A DNA stretch of 64,000 nucleotides, taken from positions 806,001 through 870,000 of the forward strand of contig JARGXX010000099.1 in assembly GCA_030374765.1 (NCBI GenBank). The letters are read 5' to 3'. A program made the position numbers and the translations under genes. Positions 8,539 to 59,367 of the stretch are shown in pieces (position 1 is the first letter of the stretch; the number at the start of each line of letters is the position of its first letter). The stretch comes from Agarophyton chilense (lineage: Eukaryota; Rhodophyta; Florideophyceae; Gracilariales; Gracilariaceae). The notes beneath the pieces were generated by a model that saw only the letters and a list, made by a program, of their open reading frames with translations, was not told where the DNA came from and made no database searches.

Positions 8539-8564
8539 TGTAGTATGTATGTATAGTGTGCTAT
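8539..8564 (+). repeat. Element A 5' LTR, first 26 bases
   Basis: TGTAGTATGTATGTATAGTG and the next six bases correspond to TGTAGTATAGTGAGCT at the start of A's 3' LTR (32368). Element F follows at 8565; the LTR resumes at 21808. Confidence 0.7.
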
Positions 8565-8984
8565 TGTAGCAATTGGGTTTTCAGGTTCGTATGTATTTAA
8601 CTTACTAATTACTGTGATGGTGCAATCATGCAAGTAATTAAATTAAAAGGATTCAATTCTTTTATCAACAGGTGCTTCTGTCGGGGAGGCACTTCTGGGC
8701 ACTCTTTCCAATCTGCACTTCGCAAGGGCACTTCGCAAGGGAGGAAGAGAGTGTTAGTGCGACTCCAGAAGCGCTTATATAGACTTTTGAGATATAAAGT
8801 AGGCGTACTGCATTAGGTAGTTATAGTACTTAGCAGTTACACCCAATAGTCCAACAATAAAAGCCTACGTTATTCTACATCACTATATTCCAGCAAGTCC
8901 AAATTCTAAACAACAATCAATAAAAGGATCAATATACAATTCCAACAAATAGTTCCTTCCATGCAAATATATCAACTCATAACA
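8565..8984 (-). repeat. Element F 3' LTR
   Basis: 420 bp, near-identical to 21383-21802. In element orientation it starts TGTTATGAG and ends TTGCTACA. The inner side carries the polypurine tract AAAGGGGGAGTAGC (read on the minus strand, 8985-8998). Confidence 0.9.
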
Positions 8985-9197
8985 GCTACTCCCCCTTTAA
9001 AATTCTTAATCGTCCTCTATTAAGCGTAACAAGCTTTTCTTAAGCTCTAAGCGGACGCAATTTATATCAACTCATAAAATCCAAAGCACATGTGAAACAA
9101 ATTCCATACTATACTTCCTGATCAACTTCCTTCTCTGTTAAGGGTAGAAACCAGATTTGCACTAATCTTCCAGTAACTGTATGACGGCGAAAGGATA

Positions 9198-13145: not shown

Positions 13146-13150
13146 TCATC

Positions 13151-13785
13151 TGTTGAAACCCAGCTACTGTAGCGCACTGAGCTGTAAAGGTTCGGTGCGG
13201 AAGGTCGAGGTTCTGTCTTCAAAGCACGGCCCGCTGTTGAGCTGTCGCCTCAAAGGTAAACCGCAACAAATACGTCAGGATCTACGGCCTGCTGTGCGGC
13301 TGTGTCCCGATGATCTGTTGATTCTACGCGGTAGTAGAGGTTGATTCAGACGTATATGCTCGCTAGAACATTGCGTGGTTCATTAACGTACTCTCTGTAG
13401 TTACGAACTGATGTTGCGCCGGGTCCAGGACTGTGTTGTTGATGTTGAATGCAGATAGATGAGAGTTAACTCCCTTCAAAAGGTTGTCGTGCTCTCTCGT
13501 TTATTCTTTAAGTATCCAAACTATCACCATCAGCGGTAGACGCGAGGTGATGTCGTTGTAAGCAGTCCTACGTGGCATAATCACACGCATTTGCACAGAT
13601 CTATTTCTAAAATCATCAAATAAAATACCTAATACTCATATGCATATTCTGAACAGTAGGATTCCACATTGTCCGTGTTAACTACACAGAGGATTCATCC
13701 TCGGATGTGTATCGCTGTTCAGTGCGCTTGTTGGCTTCTGCGGAAATCGTTTTCGATTCCCGCAGGTTTGGCTCACCACTCGACA
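13151..13785 (-). repeat. Element G 3' LTR
   Basis: 635 bp, seven differences from the copy at 18858-19492. The C-terminus of the RNase H frame (stop at 13815) lies 29 bases inside it. Confidence 0.95.
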
Positions 13786-18808: not shown

Positions 18809-18857
18809 GACAGAGCTGAGTCACTGTTACAATGTGGTCGACCGTAACAGTTATAAC

Positions 18858-19492
18858 TGTTGAAACCCAGCTATTGTAGCGCACTGAGCTGTAAAGGTTC
18901 GGTGCGGAAGGTCGAGGTTCTGTCTTCAAAGCACGGCCCGCTGTTGAGCTGTCACCTCAAAGGTAAACCGCAACAAATACGTCAGGATCTACGGCCTGCT
19001 GTGCGGCTGTGTCCCGATGATCTGTTGATTCTACGCGGTAGTAGAGGTTGATTCAGACGTATATGCTCGCTAGAACATTGCGTGGTTCATTAACGTACTC
19101 TCTGTAGTTGCGAACTGATGTTGCGCCGGGTCCAGGACTGTGTTGTTGATGTTGAATGCAGATAGATGAGAGTTAACTCCCTTCAAAAGGTTGTCGTGCT
19201 CTCTCGTTTACTCTTTAAGTATCCAAACTATCACCATCAGCGGTAGACGCGAGGTGATGTCGTTGTAAGCAGTCCTACGTGGCATAATCACACGCATTTG
19301 CACAGATCTATTTCTAAAATCATCAAATAAAATACCTAATACTCATATGCATATTCTGAACAGTAGGATTCCACAATGTCCTTGTTAACTACACAGAGGA
19401 GTCATCCTCGGATGTGTATCGCTGTTCAGTGCGCTTGTTGGCTTCTGCGGAAATCGTTTTCGATTCCCGCAGGTTTGGCTCACCACTCGACA
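18858..19492 (-). repeat. Element G 5' LTR
   Basis: 635 bp and 98.9% identical to the 3' LTR. It should carry the promoter; the polyprotein ATG is 50 bases downstream of its inner edge. Confidence 0.95.
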
Positions 19493-20484: not shown

Positions 20485-21382
20485 TCAATGCTTAGCTTTA
20501 AAGTAATTACTTACTTGACTAATTGTGTCAACCGATTCTTTTGGGGTCCTTGTAATGCGAGTAATTGGCTCACCGTTCGGTAACGTGGCCACGGAAGAGT
20601 ATTCAAAGAACGCCCTTACATGAAGCTGATGTTCTTCTGTCAGCGAGTGATGACAGTAAGCTAGGACGTCCTTACACCACAAATTGCACAAGTGGCAAGG
20701 AATCTTCAACTTGTCCACGTTTTCCACGAGAACTTGGTGTCGAGCTGCGCCAAATCCAGATTGGCTCACGATTGAGCGAATGTGATCTGCTGAGCAATTG
20801 TGATCCGTCCACGACACAGTGGGTGACTTGTGACGGTGACAGTCACGACAGAGGTCACGATCACGTGACGCTACGGAGTCACGCGGTAAGCAGATACGCC
20901 CAACTGGCTGACAGTCAGCACGCGACTTGTTCACAGCCCTCAGTATCCTGTGAAGTCGGTTACTAGCAGGGATACTGGAATCCAAATGACGGGTTGTCAG
21001 CGGAGCGTACTTATCGTCGTAAATAGGTAAATATCTCGACTGATTCTTAAATAGCCTTGGTTGCCGTACCGGCCTCGGGAGCCGATGAATCAATGGCTTT
21101 CTAATCCGATCTCCCGTCAACGTGACAACTTTCTGTAATTGGTTGCTGCCACTTACACAATCTGCTTTCTGATTGGTCGATGTAGATCTTTCAGAAAGGC
21201 TCTGTGTTGACTGAATTTTTTTTTTGGGGTCCACTTGGCAACTTCTGATTGTTGTCCGGTTGAACACTTGGCGGTTTCTTGTTGGTCAGAGACTCTACCT
21301 TGCTGGCACCTTTGCCAGGCGAACACTTGTCCGCTGAAGTCACTGTTTTTTTTTGTAAGTACTGTAAAGCGATGCTACCAAT
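20485..21382 (-). other. Element F leader open frame(s) ahead of gag, no ATG, Cys/His cluster
   Basis: Between the 5' LTR and gag, the minus strand is open for about 260 codons (21267-20485), extending upstream in a second frame to the LTR; the two frames meet in a T10 run at 21216-21225. The predicted chain has no methionine, is basic, and near its end has CHLCNLWCKDVLAYCHHS followed by HQLH, a possible zinc-binding site. It ends 31 bases before the gag ATG. It could be a leader-encoded protein begun at a non-AUG codon or by splicing, a captured host fragment, or a chance open frame. I do not recognise a family. Confidence 0.35.
21369..21380 (-). other. Element F primer-binding site
   Basis: On the minus strand TGGTAGCATCGC follows the 5' LTR by two bases. 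Identical to the element D primer site, so both probably used the same tRNA primer. Confidence 0.65.
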
Positions 21383-21802
21383 TGTAGCAACTGGGTTTTC
21401 AGGTTCGTATGTATTTAACTTACTAATTACTGTGATGGTGCAATCATGCAAGTAATTAAATTAAAAGGATTCAATTCTTTTATCAACAGGTGCTTCTGTC
21501 GGGGAGGCACTTCTGGGCACTCTTTCCAATCTGCACTTCGCAAGGGCACTTCGCAAGGGAGGAAGAGAGTGTTAGTGCGACTCCAGAAGCGCTTATATAG
21601 ACTTTTGAGATATAAAGTAGGCGTACTGCATTAGGTAGTTATAGTACTTAGCAGTTACACCCAATAGTCCAACAATAAAAGCCTACGTTATTCTACATCA
21701 CTATATTCCAGCAAGTCCAAATTCTAAACAACAATCAATAAAAGGATCAATACACAATTCCAACAAATAGTTCCTTCCATGCAATTATATCAACTCATAA
21801 CA
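21383..21802 (-). repeat. Element F 5' LTR
   Basis: 420 bp. Contains a TATA box (see 21591) and a direct duplication GCACTTCGCAAGG near the middle. Three differences from the 3' LTR. Confidence 0.9.
21591..21599 (-). promoter_or_regulatory. TATA box in element F LTR
   Basis: TATATAAGC on the minus strand, in the sense direction of F, followed by GC-rich sequence; a good candidate for the LTR promoter. An identical copy lies in the other LTR. Confidence 0.5.
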
Positions 21803-21807
21803 GCTAC

Positions 21808-22311
21808 ATCAAAGAGGTGATGATGCCACGTGTTGGACCTGGATGGTTTCCGGTATGCGCCGTGTACTAAGATGGTTTAGTTAGCATTTAGTTTAGCTTT
21901 TCGCTAATTTAGTATTAGATAAATAGGATTATGGAAAAAGGGACCCACTCCTCAAGTGCACCTCTCCGTGGCCACATTACAAGGAGCGCCACTATAGGTC
22001 GGGTGGCCGGTGAGATATATATCTATTGTAAAGTTAAGCACCTATTAGACTACTTTTACCGCTTTTGGTTTCTACAGTCGACCATAAAGGCAAGTTACGT
22101 GTCCTCACGGGTTTCCGTACCCATTTGCGCTGTGCATCACCTCCTACCAACTTGGTGTCAGTAGGCCCACTGTTTCTGTTGCACCCTTCAGTGTCTGGTG
22201 CTGCCACACCTAATAGATATCTTCAATCTCCCCTTTTGAGGTCGAGCCCATCGTACGCTCCTTAGAACGGACAGGTCTTACACCTCTTGGCTACCGTTTT
22301 GTCTTTTACCA
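21808..22311 (+). repeat. Element A 5' LTR, remainder
   Basis: Matches 32380-32894: GATGCCACGTGTTGGACCTG, TTTAGCTTTTCGCTAAT and TTTTGGTTTCTACAGTCGA are shared. Ends ...TTTTACCA. Together with 8539-8564 it makes about 530 bp, as expected from the 527-bp 3' LTR. Many point changes and indels. Confidence 0.8.
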
Positions 22312-23134: not shown

Positions 23135-23793
23135 TGTCGTATAGTGGCAGAAGATCTGACCCTTGAGGTTGTCAATATACTACACTGACCTTATAGGTGA
23201 TGGAGGCGAGGAATCATCGGCCATACAGCTCTGGGCGAGCTACCATCTAGGTGTTGTCAGCCGCGTGTATTGTTGACATGTACCTTCTGGTTGAGTAATT
23301 GTTAGTCCTTGTTATTGTAATTATATCTATTTTAGTACATTAGTGGAGTGGCCACCTGGCACTGTAGCCAGTGCTGGCCAGGTCTCTGAAACTAGGTCAG
23401 AGACCATGTCTTGCTGGCATCTCCCGGGTGATCTGGAGAGTGCAGTCCACTGCATACAGGGAACTGCACCTCCCCCATCCTAATCTGATAAAGACAGGCA
23501 TCACTTGGGTCACGACTATACCTTTTGGTTCATTGTTTCTCAACTACTACAAAGGCTTTCCTGCGCGTCGACGCCTACCATCGTTCACCTACACGGTATA
23601 GGCTAGTTGCCCCGTCGTTTGTCCCTGCGGGTTTTCACGGTGCCCTGTTACCATCGAGGTTTACTACGTCTACCTTCTATGGTTGAGCGTCAACACGCTC
23701 CCTATGGTTGAGCGTCAACACGCTCCCTACGGTTGAGCGTCACTACGCTTTCGAGACAAGACAGTAGCATACCCCAGAAGTGATTGTACGACA
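23135..23793 (+). mobile_element. Solo LTR J, element I family
   Basis: 659 bp, matching in reverse orientation the 3' LTR of element I (57334-57967). Starts TGTCGTATAGTGG and ends TTGTACGACA, an inverted TGTCGTA/TACGACA pair. Flanked by AAAAA on both sides (23130-23134, 23794-23798), a 5-bp TSD though in low-complexity sequence. It interrupts the gag of element A. Confidence 0.85.
23678..23752 (+). repeat. 25-bp minisatellite in solo LTR J, three units
   Basis: Units start TATGGTTGAGCGT or TACGGTTGAGCGT; each contains a small hairpin GAGCGT..ACGCTC. The element I LTR has about two units at the equivalent place (57374-57423). Confidence 0.9.
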
Positions 23794-26289: not shown

Positions 26290-27780
26290 GATTGGAGAGA
26301 AGAAGAAAAAATAGGCCTAAAAGGGGAAAGAAACCGAAAAAGGATACCCTCCCTTCTGAAACCGTTCTAAACCGTGTGGCCGGACGCCTGGGTGCGATAG
26401 ACGCAACCCAGCACAACATAGACTTGGCGCCAGGCGTCAAGCCTCTTCATGAGCAACCGTACCGGGCCGGTCCAAAAGCCCGTGAGGGAGAAGTACACGA
26501 GGTGCAGAGAATGCTCCGTGAAGGTTGGATTGAACCCGCCAATACGGGATGGGCAAGCCCGTGGTGCTTGTGCAAGAACTAGGAGAAGCCCAAATGTGGT
26601 TTTGTATCGACTATCGGAAGTTGAATTCCGTTACGGTGCGAGACTCGTATTCGATACCAAGAATGGATGAAATCATCGATTTCCTAGGAGACTCAAATAT
26701 ATTCACCACAATAGATACCAACTGTTGAGCATTGGGAAATAGAGATACCCAAAGAGGACGGTGATAAAACCACGTTCACCTGTCACGCTGTTACTTACCG
26801 ATTCCGGCGGATGCCTTTTGGCTTACGCGATGTGCCTGCAACCTTCCGAACGGCTCTTTAGATTATACTGTCAAAAGTAAGGTGTACAACCGCATTGGTG
26901 TAAATAGACGTCGTGGTAATCTACTCCAAACCTATGGAGGAGCACAACGAGCACGTTTGTACCGTACTGGATCTCTTGAGAAAGTCTGAAGAAACTCTGA
27001 AGTTAAGCCAGTGCATGTTTTTCGACCAGAAGGTGGAGTATATAGGGCACACAATGAGCCGAGGAAAATATTAAGTAGCCAAACGATACCTCAGAGCGGT
27101 TCAAGAAGCGAAAATCCCGAGAACCCAAAAGGGATATAAGCTCTTTCCTAAGTTTTTGCAACGTCTACCCCAGGTTTATCAAATTATTTGCGAAGATTGA
27201 AGCCCCTCTAAACTGACGTCTCCAATAAGGTTAATCAGAAATGTTTGCGTATCTAAAATACGACGAACTGGACGCCTTCCATCACTTGAAAGCGGCGCTG
27301 CTTTCACCTCCTATATTGGATTTATTGAAGACGGGAAAGCCATACATATTGGTTTTGCTGCCTCAGACGCCCATATTGTTTTCTGTCTAACGCAGGAGCA
27401 GGGCGATGAATCAAAAGCACCAATTGGTTACTGGAGCCGAGCGCTCACACATACGGAACAAAACTACTCCGTCACGGAAAAGAAATGCTTCTCCGTGGTA
27501 TGGAGCATGACAATGCTGAGGCCTTCCCTATAAGGTGCGTTTTTTACTGTATGAACGGATCATGAAGCCTTACGGTGGATATTGGGTCTTGCAGACGCCT
27601 CCCGACGATTAGTTCGATGGAGACTCCGACTCTCGCAGTTTGACTATGAAGTCCAATACCGCCATCGTATAAACCACAACATCGCAAATGCGATGTCCCG
27701 ATTAAATACCGATGGCCTGGACACCGAACCGGTAGAAAATGGTATACCATGCTTCACGATTCAGCTGGTATAACCGTATG
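26290..27780 (+). pseudogene. Element A reverse transcriptase and RNase H, decayed
   Basis: RT: IDATQHNIDLAPGVKPLHEQ, EVQRMLREGWIEPANTGWAS, DGDKTTFTCHAVTYRFRRMP. The catalytic box has decayed to a stop followed by IDVVVIYS instead of YIDD. The frame continues through EHVCTVLDLLRKSEETLKLS. RNase H: PIGYWSRALTHTEQNY, WSMTMLRPSL, TDHEALRWILGLADASRRLV and NIANAMSRLNTDGLDTEPVE. More than ten stops and frameshifts; clearly dead. Confidence 0.8.
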
Positions 27781-27889
27781 ATAACGAAGAACAAAAGGGA
27801 CTATGGGATGATGAAGAAGGATGGAGGGAGGAATCTCCCGAAATGGTAGGAGCTATCGAAGAAGGGGAGAACACTCCCGGAACCCGAGA

Positions 27890-28760
27890 GGAACTATTGC
27901 GAGCGCAAGCTATGGACATCTACTGCAGAACATTGGGTAACATAGTTGGAATAAAATAAACTTAAATCGATGTAGACCATTTAAGTTACCTAGTGCGGGG
28001 TTGTACCCTCAATGGAGCACTCCAAAAGGTGGTACCAGAGTCTCTACGCCCAAGGGTAGTGTATTTAGGGCATTACCAAAGACTGGCAGGTCATCCAGGA
28101 ACCACCTGGTTATATTACCCCCTGAGGAAACACGTCTACTGACCCGACATAGCCCAGGATGTTTACACCTATGTGACTCGCTGCGCTTCTTGTGTAAAGA
28201 CCCGAGGTGGTTTTCGAAAGCACAGGAAGTACCTGAGGATTCTTCCCGCGGCTGAGCCCCTGGAATTTGTAGCTATCCACATCCTGGGCCCACTGCCAAA
28301 AACTTCAGAGGGTTACCGATTCGTGGTGGTCATCACTGATCGGGTTTCCAAACTCACAAGGGCCACAACCCTGAAGAGCCCAACCTTGACCGTCTTGGAA
28401 AGAGTCTTCCCGAATAATTGGGTATCTGTCTACGGTGCCCCAATGTACCTACCCACCGACATTGGTTCGAACTTAGCATCCAATTTCTTTGAAGCAGTAA
28501 GTACCATGCTTGGTTTGAAGCATTACTTCAACTCGCCGTACCATCCGCAGACGAATGGCCAAGTGGAAAGCTTCAACAAAACCCTTGTGGAAAGACTATA
28601 TACTATGTAGAAGAACACCAAACTGGATGGGCTGATTATGTAGAGCCCCTAACATATGCCTATAAGCTTCAGGTACACCGATCTACGCAAACCACTGCCT
28701 TAGACCTGTTCCTTTCACGGACACCTCATGGAATTGTCCTTCTACCAGGACCCTAGAACT
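27890..28760 (+). pseudogene. Element A integrase, decayed
   Basis: QRLAGHPGTTWLYYPLRKHV and CASCVKTRG give the zinc module. In the core, FVAIHILGPLPKTSEGYRFV has His where the first catalytic Asp (AIDLLG in element I) should be. The second Asp is in LPTDIGSNLA, and the Glu in NGQVESFN. Stop at 28608, then further stops through the C-terminal region. Frame 28173-28608 is the longest intact piece. Confidence 0.8.
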
Positions 28761-28849
28761 ACCGAGCAGCTTGTACGCTTATCACCGCTCAGGTCAAGAA
28801 CGATATACTCAACAAGCTCAGGATAACATTAAAGGAGGCAAATTCCAAA

Positions 28850-29490
28850 TTGGCAGTAGACCAGAAGCGTTATAAGGCCTACTACCAGCAAGGGGTGAAG
28901 AAGACTACCGAAGTGAAAACCGGGGACTCTGTCTTCATCGAAATCCCTCACCGGGGATCGAGACCGACAACATCCGAGGAAACAGAAGATATTCGTATCG
29001 ATGCTGATATCAAATCGAAGCTAATCTCAAAGTCTACAGGACCGTATGAGGTAGTCTCAGCGAATGAGCACGCCGTTACGGTTTGAAGGGATAGACTCGA
29101 AAACACCGTATCGGTACACCTGGTCTCAGTAGACTCTAGGAAAGGTGGCACCACGGTGGACTTAGGCGATAACCCGGCACCTGCAGAAACGTATTCACCA
29201 AGTGGTACGGATAGCTTTCAATCGCAGGATCTAAACAAAACCACAGACCCTGCGACAACCGAAGAAGCCCAATAGCAGGGCTCCGTACCTCAACTAGGAG
29301 AGAACCCTGAGTTCCCAGCCTCCAAATACACTATCGACACCCTTGTAGGTCACGAACGAACACCTGCAGGTCTTCTCTACCACCTCAGGTGGTATGTTTA
29401 TGGCCCTGGAGATGATACATTGGAACCTCTTCATCATGTGCAACGCAACTTCCAATTACGGTACTGTCGCAGGCGCAACGAACCCCCGCC
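28850..29490 (+). pseudogene. Element A integrase C-terminus and chromodomain
   Basis: The frame 28850-29085 (VDQKRYKAYYQQGVKKTTEV ... KSTGPYEVVSANEHAVTV) is the GPF/Y module, equivalent to GPYKVLNASDHTVTV in element I. After stops, HLRWYVYGPGDDTLEPL (about 29380-29430) and LRYCRRRNEPP match the chromodomain of elements B and I (RWYGWGPEGDTLEPP; RYWRRRKEP). Confidence 0.7.
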
Positions 29491-29689
29491 AAGCGATGGA
29501 TAACGACCTACACTGGTGCAGTCCGCTAAGGAGGGGAAGGAGAGACATTCGCTGGGGGATTACTCTGCGCGGAGATAAAGGAAAGGTATAGTTAAGAAGC
29601 AGGACAAGTTTATTGAAAACTGCACTAGGTAAGAAACCTACAAAGGCCCCTTCAGGAAGGGATCCACACCAGGAGTTGTAGAAGGTCCT

Positions 29690-31637
29690 TCAAAAAGGCC
29701 CGGAACCAGTACCAAGATGGTTCGGAATGTGGGACCTCCAGCCCCCTCTAGACCAAAAGGGAGCAGAATCCTGAGGCGCCGGAGGTAACGGCGGCAGAGC
29801 GGAGGAGATACCGGAGGAGAAAGCAGCAGTAGGAAACCACTGAGAGCCAGGTATAGGCATCGGCTCTTTACCCAAAGGGTAATTGCTGGCGGAAGACAAG
29901 AAAGAACCATCAGTGGTGCCAATGAGGGGATCGCTCGAGGTATAAGCTCGTTCCACGATGGTGCTGAAATCGGCGACGTAATGTGTGGCCGCCTGGTACA
30001 TCCTGGTCTGGAACCGATTATGGAAGGCAACAGCCTGGTTGATAGCGGCGATATAGTCCGCGTATCGGGGGATGAGCTGCTCCAAGAGCGCGAGAGATTC
30101 TTGAAGGGAGCGCGGACCAAGACGGTTCAGACGAGAGACGTAAACGCGCTGAATCCGCATGAGCGCACCACTAAAAGCAGTAGCTGTAAGAGGCTCACCA
30201 CTGACAGCAGTCGTAGGATTCACCATGAGGGACGGCGAAGGTCCAGCAGAAGGAGCAGGAACCGAACGGGGAACGCGGATACAAGAAAGGCCAGCGGAAC
30301 CAACAGGGGCGGCGGTAGCGGAGACGAGGTAAATACCTTCCAAAGTCTCCACATAATGGGTAAAAGGGCGGAGGGGACCCACCAATGGGCTCCTCGCCTG
30401 GTAATACCCGGTTCGCCTCACTAGGGATGGCTAGCTGCTGGAAGTCCCAAACTTCCAAACATTGGTCATCCTTCCACGGATGCGACAGAGACCCCTCCAG
30501 GTCAGTCTCCAGCTGGGCAAAGCTGTATTCTGTACGAAGGAGAAATTCATTTACACCAATTTGGAGGACAAGATCCATGGTGGAGCGAGGAATCCGGAAG
30601 ATTCGACCAACACGTGAGAAACCGTAGTTGGTAATCTGAGGGTTGCAGCAACGGCTGTCCCAGGTGATACCGTCGCCGGAAGCCTTAACAGCGAGAAGGG
30701 CCACTAGAACGCCCCACTCCGCGAGAGCCACAGACCAAATGGTATAATAGTACCCCTCGCTTCGGTCGCAATGGCTGCCAAAGTGTGCCAGCACGGGGAA
30801 CAGTCGGGACGTATAACTATTACGGTACCTCGTAGTCCTCCCACCAGTCGGGACAGGTAATATACCGTTTGCAGCGATTCTAATTCGTTTATGAATGAAC
30901 TCCGTGTTATGGAAACCATGCATTGTACGGACGAGAATATTCCGACAGCGGATCCGGGCCTCGGTGGCAGCTTACTCGCACCAACGGTCAAAAGCCAAGC
31001 TGTGAATGGTATCGAAGGGTGTGATAAACATCGCCATTTTCGAGTCAAGCTTTAGCCCCTTCGTCGACGGATGGATACGGTTAAACAGTCCCACCAGGTT
31101 GGGGAAGTAGAAGAACTCGTCCTTACACCGCAGATACGGTAGGTCGCTCGTGATGGTGTTAAATATGAAAACCCGAAACGGGAAATGTTGCTGACGCTTC
31201 TGAAAGCAAGCCAGTCTTCCGGGACGGGACCTACCCTCCCTGGACCGCATCGGTGGAGCTAGTTGCACGGCGCAATGACGGTGACTGTCACAACGATTCC
31301 ATGAAGTATAACCAGGAAGGGTGGGATGGTTGTACAGCAAACCCAACCAGGCGGTGTTGATCGGGACCGGGCAAAAGGTGGCTTATAGTTGTAGTGCGTT
31401 GAGCTCCTTCATGAGCAAACAAAAAGGGTTTAGGGTTGAAAGCGGTGTGCTGAACAAATACGGATCGTAATGCCCAGACCCCAGTGGAACCCCGAATGAC
31501 GCACCAAGGATGGGGGATGACCAGGAAACCGGAGCGGTAACGGCCTGACAACGACCACGACCCTGAGAGGGGGAACTGGTCCAAGGCTTCGAGATACCAC
31601 GGCTGCGGCTCGAACCTCGGGAACCCTTATCAGACAT
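29690..31637 (-). pseudogene. Antisense gene in the 3' region of element A, product unknown
   Basis: Opposite strand to A's gag-pol, between the chromodomain and the 3' LTR. ATG at 31637 in the context GCCACCATGT. The frame runs to 30195 with only two stops (31383, 30972) in about 480 codons. Near 30400 coding character passes to another frame, open from 30421 to 29690. Together this suggests one ancestral protein of roughly 650 residues. Seen: a Ser/Arg-rich start (MSDKGSRGSSRSRGISK); a hydrophobic-aromatic middle (KDEFFYFPNLVGLFNRIHP, KMAMFITPFDTIHSLAF, YYYTIWSVALAEWGVLVALL); a Pro/Ala/Ser-rich stretch; a helical segment (SLQESLALLEQLIPRYADYI); a Pro-rich tail. No family recognised. It has far fewer lesions than A's pol. 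Plus-strand open frames here are its shadows. Confidence 0.5.
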
Positions 31638-32367
31638 GGTGGCCAACAGGGATGTAGAGGCATACCGGCGCGGTATTTCATCAGCGCCAAGGTCTTTGTA
31701 CCCATCGACGGTAGGCTCTCGCGCCCGATGCCACCCGTATTGATCGTGCAATGTGTCCTCAGAGGTGCTCGAATTCTCCGCGGACTACGCGGAAAAGAAC
31801 CGAAGGGGCCCCAATGACAAGGAAAACGCACCCGTGATCGGGTTTGACACATGGCGAAAGCCATCACCGTGTTTGGTTGATCCTTCGGCGGACCTGTGAC
31901 TTCGACAACGAGGTTTCAGGGGGTCCACTTGCATCGGGACGAAGTGCAATCCAGCCAATATGGGACGAGAAGGGAAAAGAAAGAAGGAGGGAAGGAAGGA
32001 AAATAGAAGCGATGAAACCGGAAAGATCTGGCGCGAAGAAGGAAAAGAAGCGGAGAAGACACCGATGAGGTATCTTCGCGCACTCGAAACTCGCAACGAA
32101 GAATGCCACAAAACTGACTGGTACACGAATTCCCGACCAGTCTGGGCAGCTCTAAAGGGAAGCTTATTTGCTAAGCCGTTACGAACGACCACGGGGGATA
32201 AAGCTCAAATGCGACGACGGTGGTTAAAACCGTTCGGCTCACCGCGCGGTGTTACCAAGCGGTATAGTGCATCCTGCACTGGCGACTACTGCACCAAAAC
32301 ACACCGCACCGGCGAACGCTTCACCAAGGAACAGCCACGGGGCGAGGCTGTCGCGAGGAGGGGGATC

Positions 32368-32894
32368 TGTAGTATAGTGAGCTTCACCAAGGAAGTAATG
32401 ATGCCACGTGTTGGACCTGGATGGTTGCCGACATGAGCCGTGTACTACAGTGGTTGACTTTGCATTTAGTTTAGCTTTTCGCTAATCTAGCATTTAGGGA
32501 GGCGCACGTCAAGTGCACGTCCCGGTGGCCACGTGGCGAAGAGCACCACCGTAGGTCAAGTGGCCCGTGAGATATATATTGTCACCAAGCATGACCACCC
32601 TCATCACTATCGAAAAGCTAGGCACCTGTTAGACTCCTTTTACCCGTTTTGGTTTCTACAGTCGAACATAGAGGCAAGTCTAGTGTCCTTATTGTCTTCC
32701 GGACCGCGTGCACTGTGCATCACCGTGTACCAACGTGGTCTCAGTACGCCCGCCGTTTCTGTTACACCCTTCAGTGCCTGGTGCTGCCAAACCATATAGG
32801 TATCCTCAATCTCCTCCTCCTATGTGGAGCCCATCGCTTGCTCCCTAGAACCATCAGTTCCGACACCCGCTCCTTACCGTTTGGATTTATGCCA
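32368..32894 (+). repeat. Element A 3' LTR
   Basis: 527 bp from TGTAGTATAGTGAGC to ...TTATGCCA, preceded by the polypurine tract GAGGAGGGGGATC. Its divergence from the 5' LTR is high, roughly a quarter by eye, including indels. Confidence 0.8.
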
Positions 32895-33269
32895 CATCAC
32901 TCAACCTCTGGACGTCACGACCCTTAACTCCCAGAAGTCCTTATTACAACAGGAACTGCCCAGCGCAACACGGCAGAAGTCAAAACAAAGTGCAGTCGAT
33001 TTTGGTCAGTGTATCCACAACACCTACTCACGCTCGCAAACAGCGACCAACATTCGTTCTGGGTTCTTAAATACTGGCACTCCTCGCCACGTTGCCACCA
33101 GGACGTGCACTTGAGGTGCGCCTTTTTATCTACTTACTCTTATCCACCAAACTAGCGAAAAGCTAAACTAATTGCTGTATAAACTACTGTACTATACAGC
33201 GCATACCCGCAACCATCCAGGCCCATCACGTGGCATAGATAATTAATAGGTGTAGCTCACTATACTACA
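32895..33269 (-). repeat. Solo LTR E, 5' portion
   Basis: Read on the minus strand it starts TGTAGTATAGTGAGCTACACC and shares GATGG, GTTTAGCTTTTCGCTA and GCGCAC.TCAAGTGCACGTC blocks with A's LTRs, then diverges. It continues into 8538-8427 once element A is removed (total about 487 bp). It is followed by GAAATTG (33270-33276), the duplicate of 8420-8426. Confidence 0.7.
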
Positions 33270-33750
33270 GAAATTGAGAAAACGGCATTCATCACGAAGT
33301 GAGGCCCATTTGAGTACTTGGTAAGACCAATGAGACTTTTCAATGCTGATGTGACGTTTAAGTTTCTAATAAACGGTATTCTACATGATTACATTGATCA
33401 TTTTCTCGTTGTTTACATCGATGATAATTCATCTATAATCAAACGTGCGAGGAGCATCTTGCGCATCCGGGCTTTCCAGGAACGCCTTCTTCGCCATAAG
33501 AAATATGTGTTCTCTAAGAAATGCTCCTTTACGACCACCAAGACAAAATTTCTTGGATTGGAGCTAAGACGCGAAAGCTCATCAGTGCATCCCCGTAAGA
33601 ATGATGTAATTAAGAACTGGCCGCCCCCTATCAAATTTACAGAGGTTTGTAGTTTCTTAGGCCTTGTACAGTTCTTTCGGCGTCTAATTCTCCGGTTCTC
33701 GTTGAGAGCAGAGCATCTCACGAGCCTCACTAGTTAGGGCTCCGGCAAAA
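33270..33750 (+). pseudogene. Element D reverse transcriptase, part 2 (palm/thumb)
   Basis: EIEKTAFITK, a stop (33299), then GPFEYLVRPMRLFN, DVTFKFLINGILHDYIDHFL, VVYIDDNSSIIKRA (catalytic YIDD intact), KKCSFTTTKTKFLGLELRRE and TEVCSFLGLVQFFRRLI. This is the continuation of the RT at 7960-8426, starting at the exact next residues. It stops at 33735 within the connection domain, 36 bases before element C. RNase H is missing. Confidence 0.85.
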
Positions 33751-57333: not shown

Positions 57334-57967
57334 TGTCGTACAATCACCTCTGGGGTATGCTACTCTCTTGTCTCGGGAGCGTGGTGACGCTCAACCGTAA
57401 AGAGCGTGATGACGCTTAACCTTAGAAGGTAGACGTAATAAACCTCGATGGTAACAAGGCACCGTGAAAACCCGCAGGGGCAAACGGCGGGGCAACTAGT
57501 CTATAACGTGTAGGTGAACGATGGTAGGCGTCGACGCGCGGGAAAGCCGGTGTTGTAGTTGAGAAACAATGAACCAAAAGGTATAGTCGTGACCCACGTG
57601 ATGCCTGTCTTTATCAGATTAGGATGACGGAGGTGCAGTTCCCTATATGTAATGGACTGAACTCTCCAGATCACCCGGGAGGTGCCAGTAAAACACGGTC
57701 TCTGACCTAGTGTCAGAGACCTGGCCAGCACTGGCTACAGTGCCAGGTGGCCCCTCCACTACTGTACTAAAATAAATATAATTACAATTACAAGTACTAA
57801 CAATTACTCAACCAGAAGGTACATGTCAACACTACACAGGGCTGACAACACCTAGATGGTAGCTTGCCCGGAGCTGCGTGGCCGATGATCCCTTGCATCC
57901 ATCACCTACAAGGCCAGTGTAGTATATCGACAACCTCAAATGTCAAACCTTCTGCCACTATACGACA
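57334..57967 (-). repeat. Element I 3' LTR
   Basis: 634 bp, TGTCGTACAATCACC to ...CTATACGACA on the plus strand, the same family as solo LTR J. Has about two copies of the 25-bp minisatellite present three times in J. Confidence 0.88.
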
Positions 57968-57983
57968 GACCCCCTTTCTACCC

Positions 57984-58707
57984 ATGAGACACGCCTCGTG
58001 TCTCCTTCCATCAAACCATAAAAGTACAGCGAGCGACAGCGGCGCGGGCATCGGAGTGGTGTCTGCCGGCGGTTGCTAACGGTGCGCGACGCGCGATCCC
58101 TTGAGGTTCAGAACTTGGTGCCAGTGTCGGTTGGGGAGTGCGAGCGACGACGGCGGCGCACGAATTGAGCGACAACCATTCAGGTAGGGACTGCCATGAG
58201 GACAATGCAGTGTCAATAGTGCGCCCGCGGACACGTTTTCGGTAGTGGGCTCCTGCGCGCTTGCGATTATGCTTCCGCATAGCCTACCGTTCAACCAAGT
58301 TGTTATCGCTCCTCTTCCCAGTGGCGGGGCTACCGCTCCTTCGCTACCTCCTATGTCGATGGATCCTAGCATTACTGCCAGTTTTCCTTCGTGAGTACTC
58401 AATAACATGGGTCCTCCCGATCCCACTGCTCCTCAACCGACAGGTCCTTCTACTCCCGGATTCGGAGGCCAGACTTTCTGTCGCTTCACCTTTGAGGTTC
58501 TTGTGGCGGCCACCTGCCAATTGACTTCCTTAGTATCTCCTTCTTCAAGTAAATTGTTGTCTCTTCTTGTCTCTTCTACTGTTACATTCGGTTGTTCTTT
58601 CGTGTCCTCCCTTGTAGGTAATCTGACACGCATATGCGTCCACCTTCTGCGAAAAACGACGTCTTTTCTACCCCCTCTTTAGGCCTGAGTACCACGAAGG
58701 TCTAAGG
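57984..58707. other. Element I 3' region between chromodomain and LTR
   Basis: About 725 bp. The antisense (plus) strand has two short ATG frames, 58268-58393 (a Pro/Ser-rich chain) and 58407-58682 (MGPPDPTAPQPTGPSTPGFG), in different phases. The same strand and position carry the long antisense gene in element A, but similarity is not evident, so I do not call genes here. Confidence 0.35.
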
Positions 58708-59367
58708 TTAGCCGTCTGCAGGCATGGGCTCCTTGCGACGGCGCCAATACCTGATACGGAAGTGTGGGGGTATTGCGGCTGGGGGTTCGAGGGTGTCCCC
58801 TTCTGGGCCCCATCCGTACCACCTTACGGTGTACTTCAGACCATTGTAGGTTGGCGTGTGGCCCACCAGACGGTCAACGGGAAAATCCTCTGAGGTTTGG
58901 TCCTGCTCTTTTGGGGGAATGCTACCTCGAGGGTTCATATGTTCCGAGTTGGGAGCTTCGTGTGTGGGAGCCAGGTCGGGAGCTCCCGTTGTTACCGTGT
59001 GAGGTTCCATTTCCGTCCCTGTTAGAGGGTTGTAATCCTGATCATCCCGTTGTAGGTCATCGTTCACCTCAATTGGGGTGGGGTCCTCCGAGGGTCGAGT
59101 ACGCAGGGCTACAGCTCTGGGCACTCGGGCTGAGGTGCCTGCCTCAATGCGATGTTGAACCGTTTCAGGTGCTACTGTAATACGGTCAATTGATATCGTA
59201 TTCGGTATTCTATCTTGTTCAACCGTAACGGTGTGGTCTGATGCGTTCAATACCTTATAAGGTCCCACTAATTTGGGTAGAAGCTTCGAATGGTTATATC
59301 TCTCAGTAGCTTCATCGTCCGCTTTATCACCCGGTCGCGGTCTTCTACCGGAAGGTAGGTTATCTAT
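58708..59367 (-). pseudogene. Element I integrase C-terminus and chromodomain
   Basis: In frame with the integrase core after a stop at 59368. GPYKVLNASDHTVTVEQDRI is the GPF/Y module; then a long acidic Pro/Thr linker; then FPVDRLVGHTPTYNGLKYTV (RWYGWGPEGDTLEPP), HFRIRYWRRRKEP, a complete chromodomain ending at a stop at 58708. It would guide integration through chromatin binding. Confidence 0.8.

Follow-up and report, generated by a model that had tools for sequence, protein, structure and literature searches.

A long reading frame lies in the 3' part of a decayed retrotransposon of the red alga Agarophyton chilense, on the strand opposite to gag-pol, and it raises the question of whether such a frame is a gene, whether it belongs to the element, and what it might do for its carrier. 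The window analysed here is a stretch of 64,000 nucleotides containing this retrotransposon, element A, together with two relatives, B and I. Open segments on the minus strand of the window follow one another from 31637 down to about 29640, and GCCACCATG stands at 31637, in agreement with the first-pass annotation of a long minus-strand gene with that start. The gene is located between the plus-strand pol of element A and its 3' LTR. Coordinates are collected in Table 1.

Table 1. Features of elements A and B that bear on the antisense gene (window coordinates)
Feature	Position	Strand	Remarks
Part of the 5' LTR, element A	21802..22284	+	repeat match to 32380-32867 at 72% (element A LTR pair)
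Element A pol, from RT through integrase to a chromodomain-like end	26550..29500	+	decayed; RT and integrase located by match
Antisense accessory gene of element A's family	29638..31637	-	family register 665 codons; window copy decayed, with several stops of its own and small indels
Stretch upstream of the antisense start, candidate promoter or leader	31638..32165	-	without a multi-copy stop for ~177 codons
3' LTR of element A	32368..33269	+	ends TGTAGTATAGTG and CACTATACTACA by eye; purine tract just before
3' region of element B across a ~2.67-kb internal deletion (most of the antisense gene lost)	57980..58760	-	relative to a young copy
Antisense-gene remnant in element B	58314..58451	+	last 46 codons, 67% identical to young-lineage copy; opposite B's pol

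The A-family LTR (32366-33271) has long inverted ends, about 180-190 bp per end matching each other in reverse at 74%. The 5' part of element A contains a segment (23135-23793) that is 88% identical to the 3' LTR of element B (57334-57967, opposite strand); this is probably a B-family solo LTR, present in A as an insertion. A direct repeat of 427 bp at 99.3% (8563-8989 and 21381-21807), the second copy of which ends about where the 5' LTR match of A begins, perhaps represents LTRs spanning 12.8 kb. Another repeat pair of 636 bp, 98.9% identical (13150-13785 and 18857-19492), resembles the LTR pair of a young element. The uL3 ribosomal protein gene of the window is a single open frame; the best-scoring solved structures for its product are Chaetomium and Neurospora entries, with others not far behind. 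Searches for hydrophobin, M36 peptidase and radial spoke families returned no match, which is not evidence that these are absent.

The DNA of the gene region gave 45 matches in the searched assembly (79.8 Mb, 135 contigs), fragments and the window copy counted, most of them at 74-82% identity, and the window copy was aligned with the 20 best others. In the register counted from 31637, ATG is present in 14 of these 21 A-family copies, and the stop at 29640-29638 in 16 of the 19 copies with letters there, which gives a length of 665 codons. The window copy has its own stop, slightly short of that of the family. It also has several small indels that are absent from all 20 other aligned copies, and an intron or a programmed shift is thereby ruled out as the cause of its frame switch. 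The two stops and one frameshift first counted in it were an underestimate, since comparison with the family register gives 6 stops in its 2.0 kb, together with 4 indels that shift the frame; the corresponding counts for the pol of element A are 15 and 5 in 2.95 kb. Nor are the lesions far fewer than in gag-pol, as had been suggested. Across 14 of the 21 copies (seven were left out because of short pol coverage), stops number 2.86 per kb in the antisense gene and 4.08 in pol, and frame-shifting indels 1.27 and 1.64, so that the rates in the gene are a little below those of pol and the difference is mild.

Comparison between the copies identifies the frame as coding. Stops account for 146 of 13,707 codons (1.07%) in the antisense frame of the 21 copies, against 2.21-5.64% in the other five frames. 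The dN/dS is 0.556 in the antisense frame and 0.84-1.00 in the others, except for the mirror frame on the sense strand, which has a value of 0.585 because it reflects the same third positions, but contains 3.97% stops. Alleles common to at least three of the 21 copies are distributed over codon positions 1:2:3 as 173:141:285 (p=3.7e-13), whereas alleles private to one copy are nearly even (604:562:531, p=0.09). The 134 columns past the gene stop show no codon pattern (11:13:13, p=0.9). The excess of third positions among shared alleles, together with the flat distribution of private ones, indicates a gene that was selected while the family spread and that has been decaying in each dead copy. 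Thus, the antisense frame codes for a protein that purifying selection maintained during the multiplication of the elements, and after insertion the gene copies, including that of the window, decay without visible constraint. The same holds for the pol of the A family, with shared alleles at 112:78:143 and private ones at 703:672:715 in 14 copies. A chance open frame is ruled out by the frame-specific scarcity of stops and the third-position excess of shared alleles. The first-pass annotation had proposed an antisense accessory gene of the element, to be given up if no other copy kept the frame or if substitutions lacked codon periodicity; the frame is conserved across copies and the substitutions are codon-periodic, and the gene is real.

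A protein search with one A-family segment as query (best 149 of 947 first-look candidates scored) returned many matches that have long open frames and are about 40-45% identical to it. Three of these loci, belonging to a younger lineage, were read first, each having an open frame of 842-876 codons opposite a Ty3/Gypsy pol, and with 16 further copies fetched they make up a set of 19. The gene of this lineage has 666 codons, with a stop at codon 666 in 15 of the 19 copies and ATG in 14. Stops make up 0.41% of its frame versus 1.81-5.14% of the other five, dN/dS is 0.664 versus 0.79-0.93, and alleles are distributed as 26:27:54 when shared and 469:451:453 when private. The dN/dS values of the two lineages (0.556 and 0.664) are only moderately below 1 because most differences arose after insertion. 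Four of the 19 copies have a frame without stop or gap, at least one of them lacking the ATG, so intact frames exist. The proteins of the A family and the young lineage are 43% identical across a central part of 255 residues; the identity is 30-41% in three further segments and 28% in an N-terminal one, and their N-termini align around a Gly/Arg/Ser-rich stretch. The gene therefore occurs in two diverged lineages in the same place and orientation and with the same length (666 vs 665 codons). Element A as the only carrier is ruled out by this second lineage and the further genome matches, and the view that the insert is confined to A has to be abandoned, element B being a deletion derivative.

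These observations also bear on a reading in which the antisense RNA is the regulator and the open frame is incidental. Antisense transcripts of transposable elements can regulate without coding (PMC7264820), and transposon-derived antisense lncRNAs have been reported from a fungus (PMC10648671). The codon pattern of the shared alleles, the frame-specific scarcity of stops, the equal length and the 43% identity between lineages speak against it; as sole explanation it is contradicted by the codon pattern, and we consider it scarcely credible. The RNA may still have a regulatory role besides coding for the protein.

The position of the start is less sharply defined. Single A-family copies carry stops upstream of the ATG, amounting to 1.13% in the gene frame and to 1.58% and 2.04% in the two other frames of the same strand, and the upstream stretch is open for 176-210 codons in three young-lineage copies. 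The 180 bp adjoining the ATG differ by codon position in the A family (14:10:29, p=0.003), and nothing significant was seen farther upstream; in the three young copies the upstream region has no clear third-position excess (93:102:117), compared with 99:134:198 in the gene itself. A start at 31637 has the best support, as this is where the N-termini of the two lineages come into alignment. In view of the third-position excess just before the ATG, it is possible that the protein starts somewhat upstream and is longer. Pyrimidine tracts of at least 9 bases occur on the antisense strand 337-424 bp upstream of the ATG in 19 of 21 A-family copies. The pyrimidine-rich tracts in the window lie at 31968-32050 (antisense strand) and are a possible promoter feature. 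The long tract of the A lineage was not seen in the three young copies with upstream sequence, where the longest has 9-10 bases, and a promoter common to both lineages therefore lacks support.

To which type of element the gene belongs can be seen from its neighbours. The best 131 gene matches (130 of 1598 candidates scored) were compared with the best 150 matches to the young-lineage integrase (150 of 3385 candidates scored). Among the matches listed, 67 of the 131 gene matches have an integrase match within 8 kb. In 65 of these 67 pairs the integrase runs opposite to the gene and lies on its 3' side, which places the gene beyond pol, the two exceptions being same-strand; the distance is 1.7-2.7 kb in 63 of the 67. 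The 64 gene and 84 integrase matches without a partner among those listed are uninformative by themselves. Furthermore, pol pieces lie opposite the gene in 20 of 20 loci read (L009-L028), two of which (L019 and L028) hold an extra piece in another orientation. The carrier pol consists of RT, integrase and then a weakly matching chromodomain (PF00078, PF17921 and PF00665 were found), which fits the order of Ty3/Gypsy chromoviruses; the pol end of the young relative L030 has a match to PF00385 that falls short of the Pfam cut-off (E=0.0013), and the window's own pol pieces gave no Pfam match. Beside one A-family copy with a shortened pol is a long open frame (L012:995-2623) matching Transposase_21 (tnp2) at E 1.1e-8, probably a nested DNA transposon.

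The gene is kept in many copies of the family (45 DNA matches, 149 and 131 protein matches among those listed, and the remnant in B) and is not a single capture. The first-pass annotation had left it between a captured gene and a new accessory function; the accessory gene stands, while for capture no source was found among the best-scored genome candidates. A captured host gene carried as cargo, with its homologue elsewhere in the genome, would agree with the failure of the protein to match retroelement domains in Pfam. The lack of a host homologue among the best 130-149 of 947-1598 candidates, and the fact that the matches that can be placed adjoin integrase, count weakly against it, with the limit that 64 of the 131 gene matches are without an integrase partner among the matches listed. 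We regard this origin as quite improbable.

The first 60 residues are basic and Gly/Arg/Ser-rich in all four proteins inspected (pI 11.6-12.0, net charge +6), and are followed by a conserved central part and Pro-rich stretches (17-21% and 19-24%). There is one hydrophobic stretch, near residue 312, with a maximum 19-residue hydropathy of 1.75-2.47 in the four proteins. This stretch is what could suggest an env-like gene in an unusual orientation, but it is central and not C-terminal, the protein begins with the Gly/Arg/Ser-rich segment, and the gene runs opposite to pol, whereas env-like genes are in sense orientation; such an identity is very unlikely.

That no family could be recognised at first inspection was borne out by the searches, which returned only isolated weak scores. 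In Pfam, three intact-frame proteins matched no family with the limit set to an E of 10, although the filters remove most of what scores above 0.1, and a search with 15 members gave six families, each in one of the 15 and with a best E of 0.019, which we take as chance. PHROGs and NCBIfam gave nothing beyond an E of 0.25, in PHROGs. Solved structures, searched by sequence and profile, gave best E values of 0.73, 0.09 and 0.11, likewise taken as chance, and no relatives were found in viral contigs, prokaryote genomes or plasmids. A structure model of one window segment alone had a mean pLDDT of 42.7, with C-terminal helices at low confidence, and was too poor for a fold search. An antisense-encoded suppressor of host silencing, acting in trans on RNAi or chromatin, would be in keeping with an accessory gene dispensable in cis and with the basic Gly/Arg-rich N-terminus. 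It would leave the absence of any specific signature, and of a family match in Pfam, NCBIfam, PHROGs and solved structures, to be explained, and we consider it unlikely.

Most of the gene has been lost from the shorter relative B. Its integrase and pol end are 82% identical to the young lineage, and about 2.67 kb present in a young copy is missing from it. The 46-codon remnant and the internal deletion rule out that B was ancestrally without the gene. Element A had been thought to have gained extra sequence relative to B; the polarity is the reverse, B being shorter through deletion of the gene, of which it keeps 46 codons. Among 46 matches to the 3' region of B (best 40 of 469 candidates scored), 13, including the window copy, extend over 774 or more of the 781 bases and the remaining ones are partial. 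The B junction form has thus multiplied to at least 13 copies. For relative I, tblastn within the window detected no remnant of the gene.

Further losses were looked for in 12 integrase copies near the top of the match ranking, 11 of them from the 84 without a gene match within 8 kb and one with the nearest at 7.3 kb; two copies of the same rank were skipped, one as the already known B form. As this sample was picked for the absence of a listed gene, its counts give no estimate of the frequency of loss. Eight of the 12 carry deletions, all eight different and each taking about two thirds to all of the gene; one keeps the gene across the 1.2 kb seen, and three gave no clear structure. Judged by eye, five of eight deletion junctions (seven loci and B) share 3-9 bp at their ends and one shares 1 bp, while two were not judged. 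Short shared ends at deletion junctions are expected of template switching in reverse transcription. Various internal deletions have thus removed the gene from sister copies, and one or more of the deleted forms went on to multiply. The repeated deletions imply that the gene is not needed in cis, and as several gene-less kinds of copy have spread, either other copies can probably supply the protein or the gene is dispensable. The spread of gene-less copies fits a dispensable gene, or one that limits the element, as well as it fits supply by other copies.

Copy-number control restrains transposition in Ty1, and the antisense protein may be a self-limiting factor restraining the transposition of its own element, with deletion derivatives multiplying by escape. 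The repeated losses (eight different deletions in 8 of 12 sampled copies) and the deleted form present in at least 13 copies would be expected from this, and gene loss as an aid to intragenomic spread has been discussed for env, although it is said not to hold in bdelloids (PMC5408684). However, a brake acting in trans would restrain the deleted copies too, purifying selection in two lineages requires a benefit to the carrier, and complementation alone also predicts losses. Self-limitation is therefore improbable in our judgement.

The explanation that we prefer, and to which we give about an even chance, is an element-borne accessory protein that acts in trans and is encoded antisense to gag-pol in a group of chromodomain Ty3/Gypsy elements. 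The antisense gene is the third gene of this group, between pol and the 3' LTR, and would have a transcript of its own that begins somewhere between the gene's start and that LTR. The predicted product of ~666 residues would consist of a basic Gly/Arg/Ser-rich N-terminus, a conserved centre, Pro-rich linkers and a helical C-terminal segment. Such a protein would act in trans, probably in the nucleus, on the RNA or DNA of the element by regulating, protecting or importing it. Gene-less derivatives, if the action is in trans, would be carried along by complete copies.

As an ORF that lies beyond pol, before the 3' LTR, and runs antisense to gag-pol, the gene matches the aORF-3R arrangement of plants, known from maize Grande (gene23), rice RIRE2 and Silene Retand (ORF4); the role of these plant ORFs is described as undetermined, with a nuclear or DNA-binding function suspected (PMC7264820, PMC11963269). 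The likeness consists of position, orientation and maintenance in many copies (PMC7264820, PMC11963269). Retand is a non-chromovirus whose antisense ORFs are mostly TRP28 (PF04195), whereas the carrier described here has a chromodomain-like pol end; antisense TRP28 ORFs occur in 97% of Retand clusters, and the domain is reported only from flowering plants (PMC11963269). The carrier is also not matched by a non-chromovirus Tat/Retand pol, given the resemblance of the L030 pol end to PF00385 (E=0.0013, a weak match in a single carrier). Retand has non-autonomous forms without gag-pol domains (PMC11963269), whereas the deletions seen here lie in the antisense gene. TRP28 is absent by sequence profile from the three intact-frame proteins, so that the arrangement appears to be that of the plant antisense ORFs (Grande, Retand) without a TRP28 domain, as compared by sequence profile.

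The antisense product HBZ of HTLV-1 is a bZIP protein, whereas neither bZIP nor any other Pfam family was found in the three proteins here, compared by profile. In deltaretroviruses the antisense gene, HBZ, is likewise located towards the 3' end of the LTR-bounded element, and its product is nuclear (PMC11963269). LTR elements of bdelloid rotifers carry ORF3 genes (GDSL, DEDDy) as extra genes beyond gag-pol, and their possible systematic loss is discussed (PMC5408684). These have enzymatic homologues, in contrast to the antisense gene, for which none was found, and the one use of the word "antisense" in the available text of that paper concerns small RNAs (PMC5408684). Tcn1-like chromoviruses of fungi share the chromodomain-bearing Ty3/Gypsy pol with the carrier, a likeness by type of pol and not by clade placement (PMC2864245). 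The word "antisense" does not occur in the available text of a survey of fungal LTR elements (PMC3248453), and among the open-licence papers listed none describes, in its title or the start of its abstract, an antisense accessory gene carried by an LTR element of a fungus, which is no proof of novelty.

More tentatively, we suggest that this chromovirus group has long kept a trans-acting antisense gene whose fold may be unrelated to that of the plant antisense ORFs, the layout being convergent, and that its copies may form a two-tier society, in which complete copies pay and many independently born gene-less derivatives use or escape the protein. The plant-type antisense layout is here found in chromodomain elements, where two diverged lineages carry it, some copies are intact and others form a natural deletion series. 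This makes a comparative test possible, in which copies that share the same pol are compared for how far they have spread with and without the gene, and it extends the question of antisense accessory genes outside plants and retroviruses.
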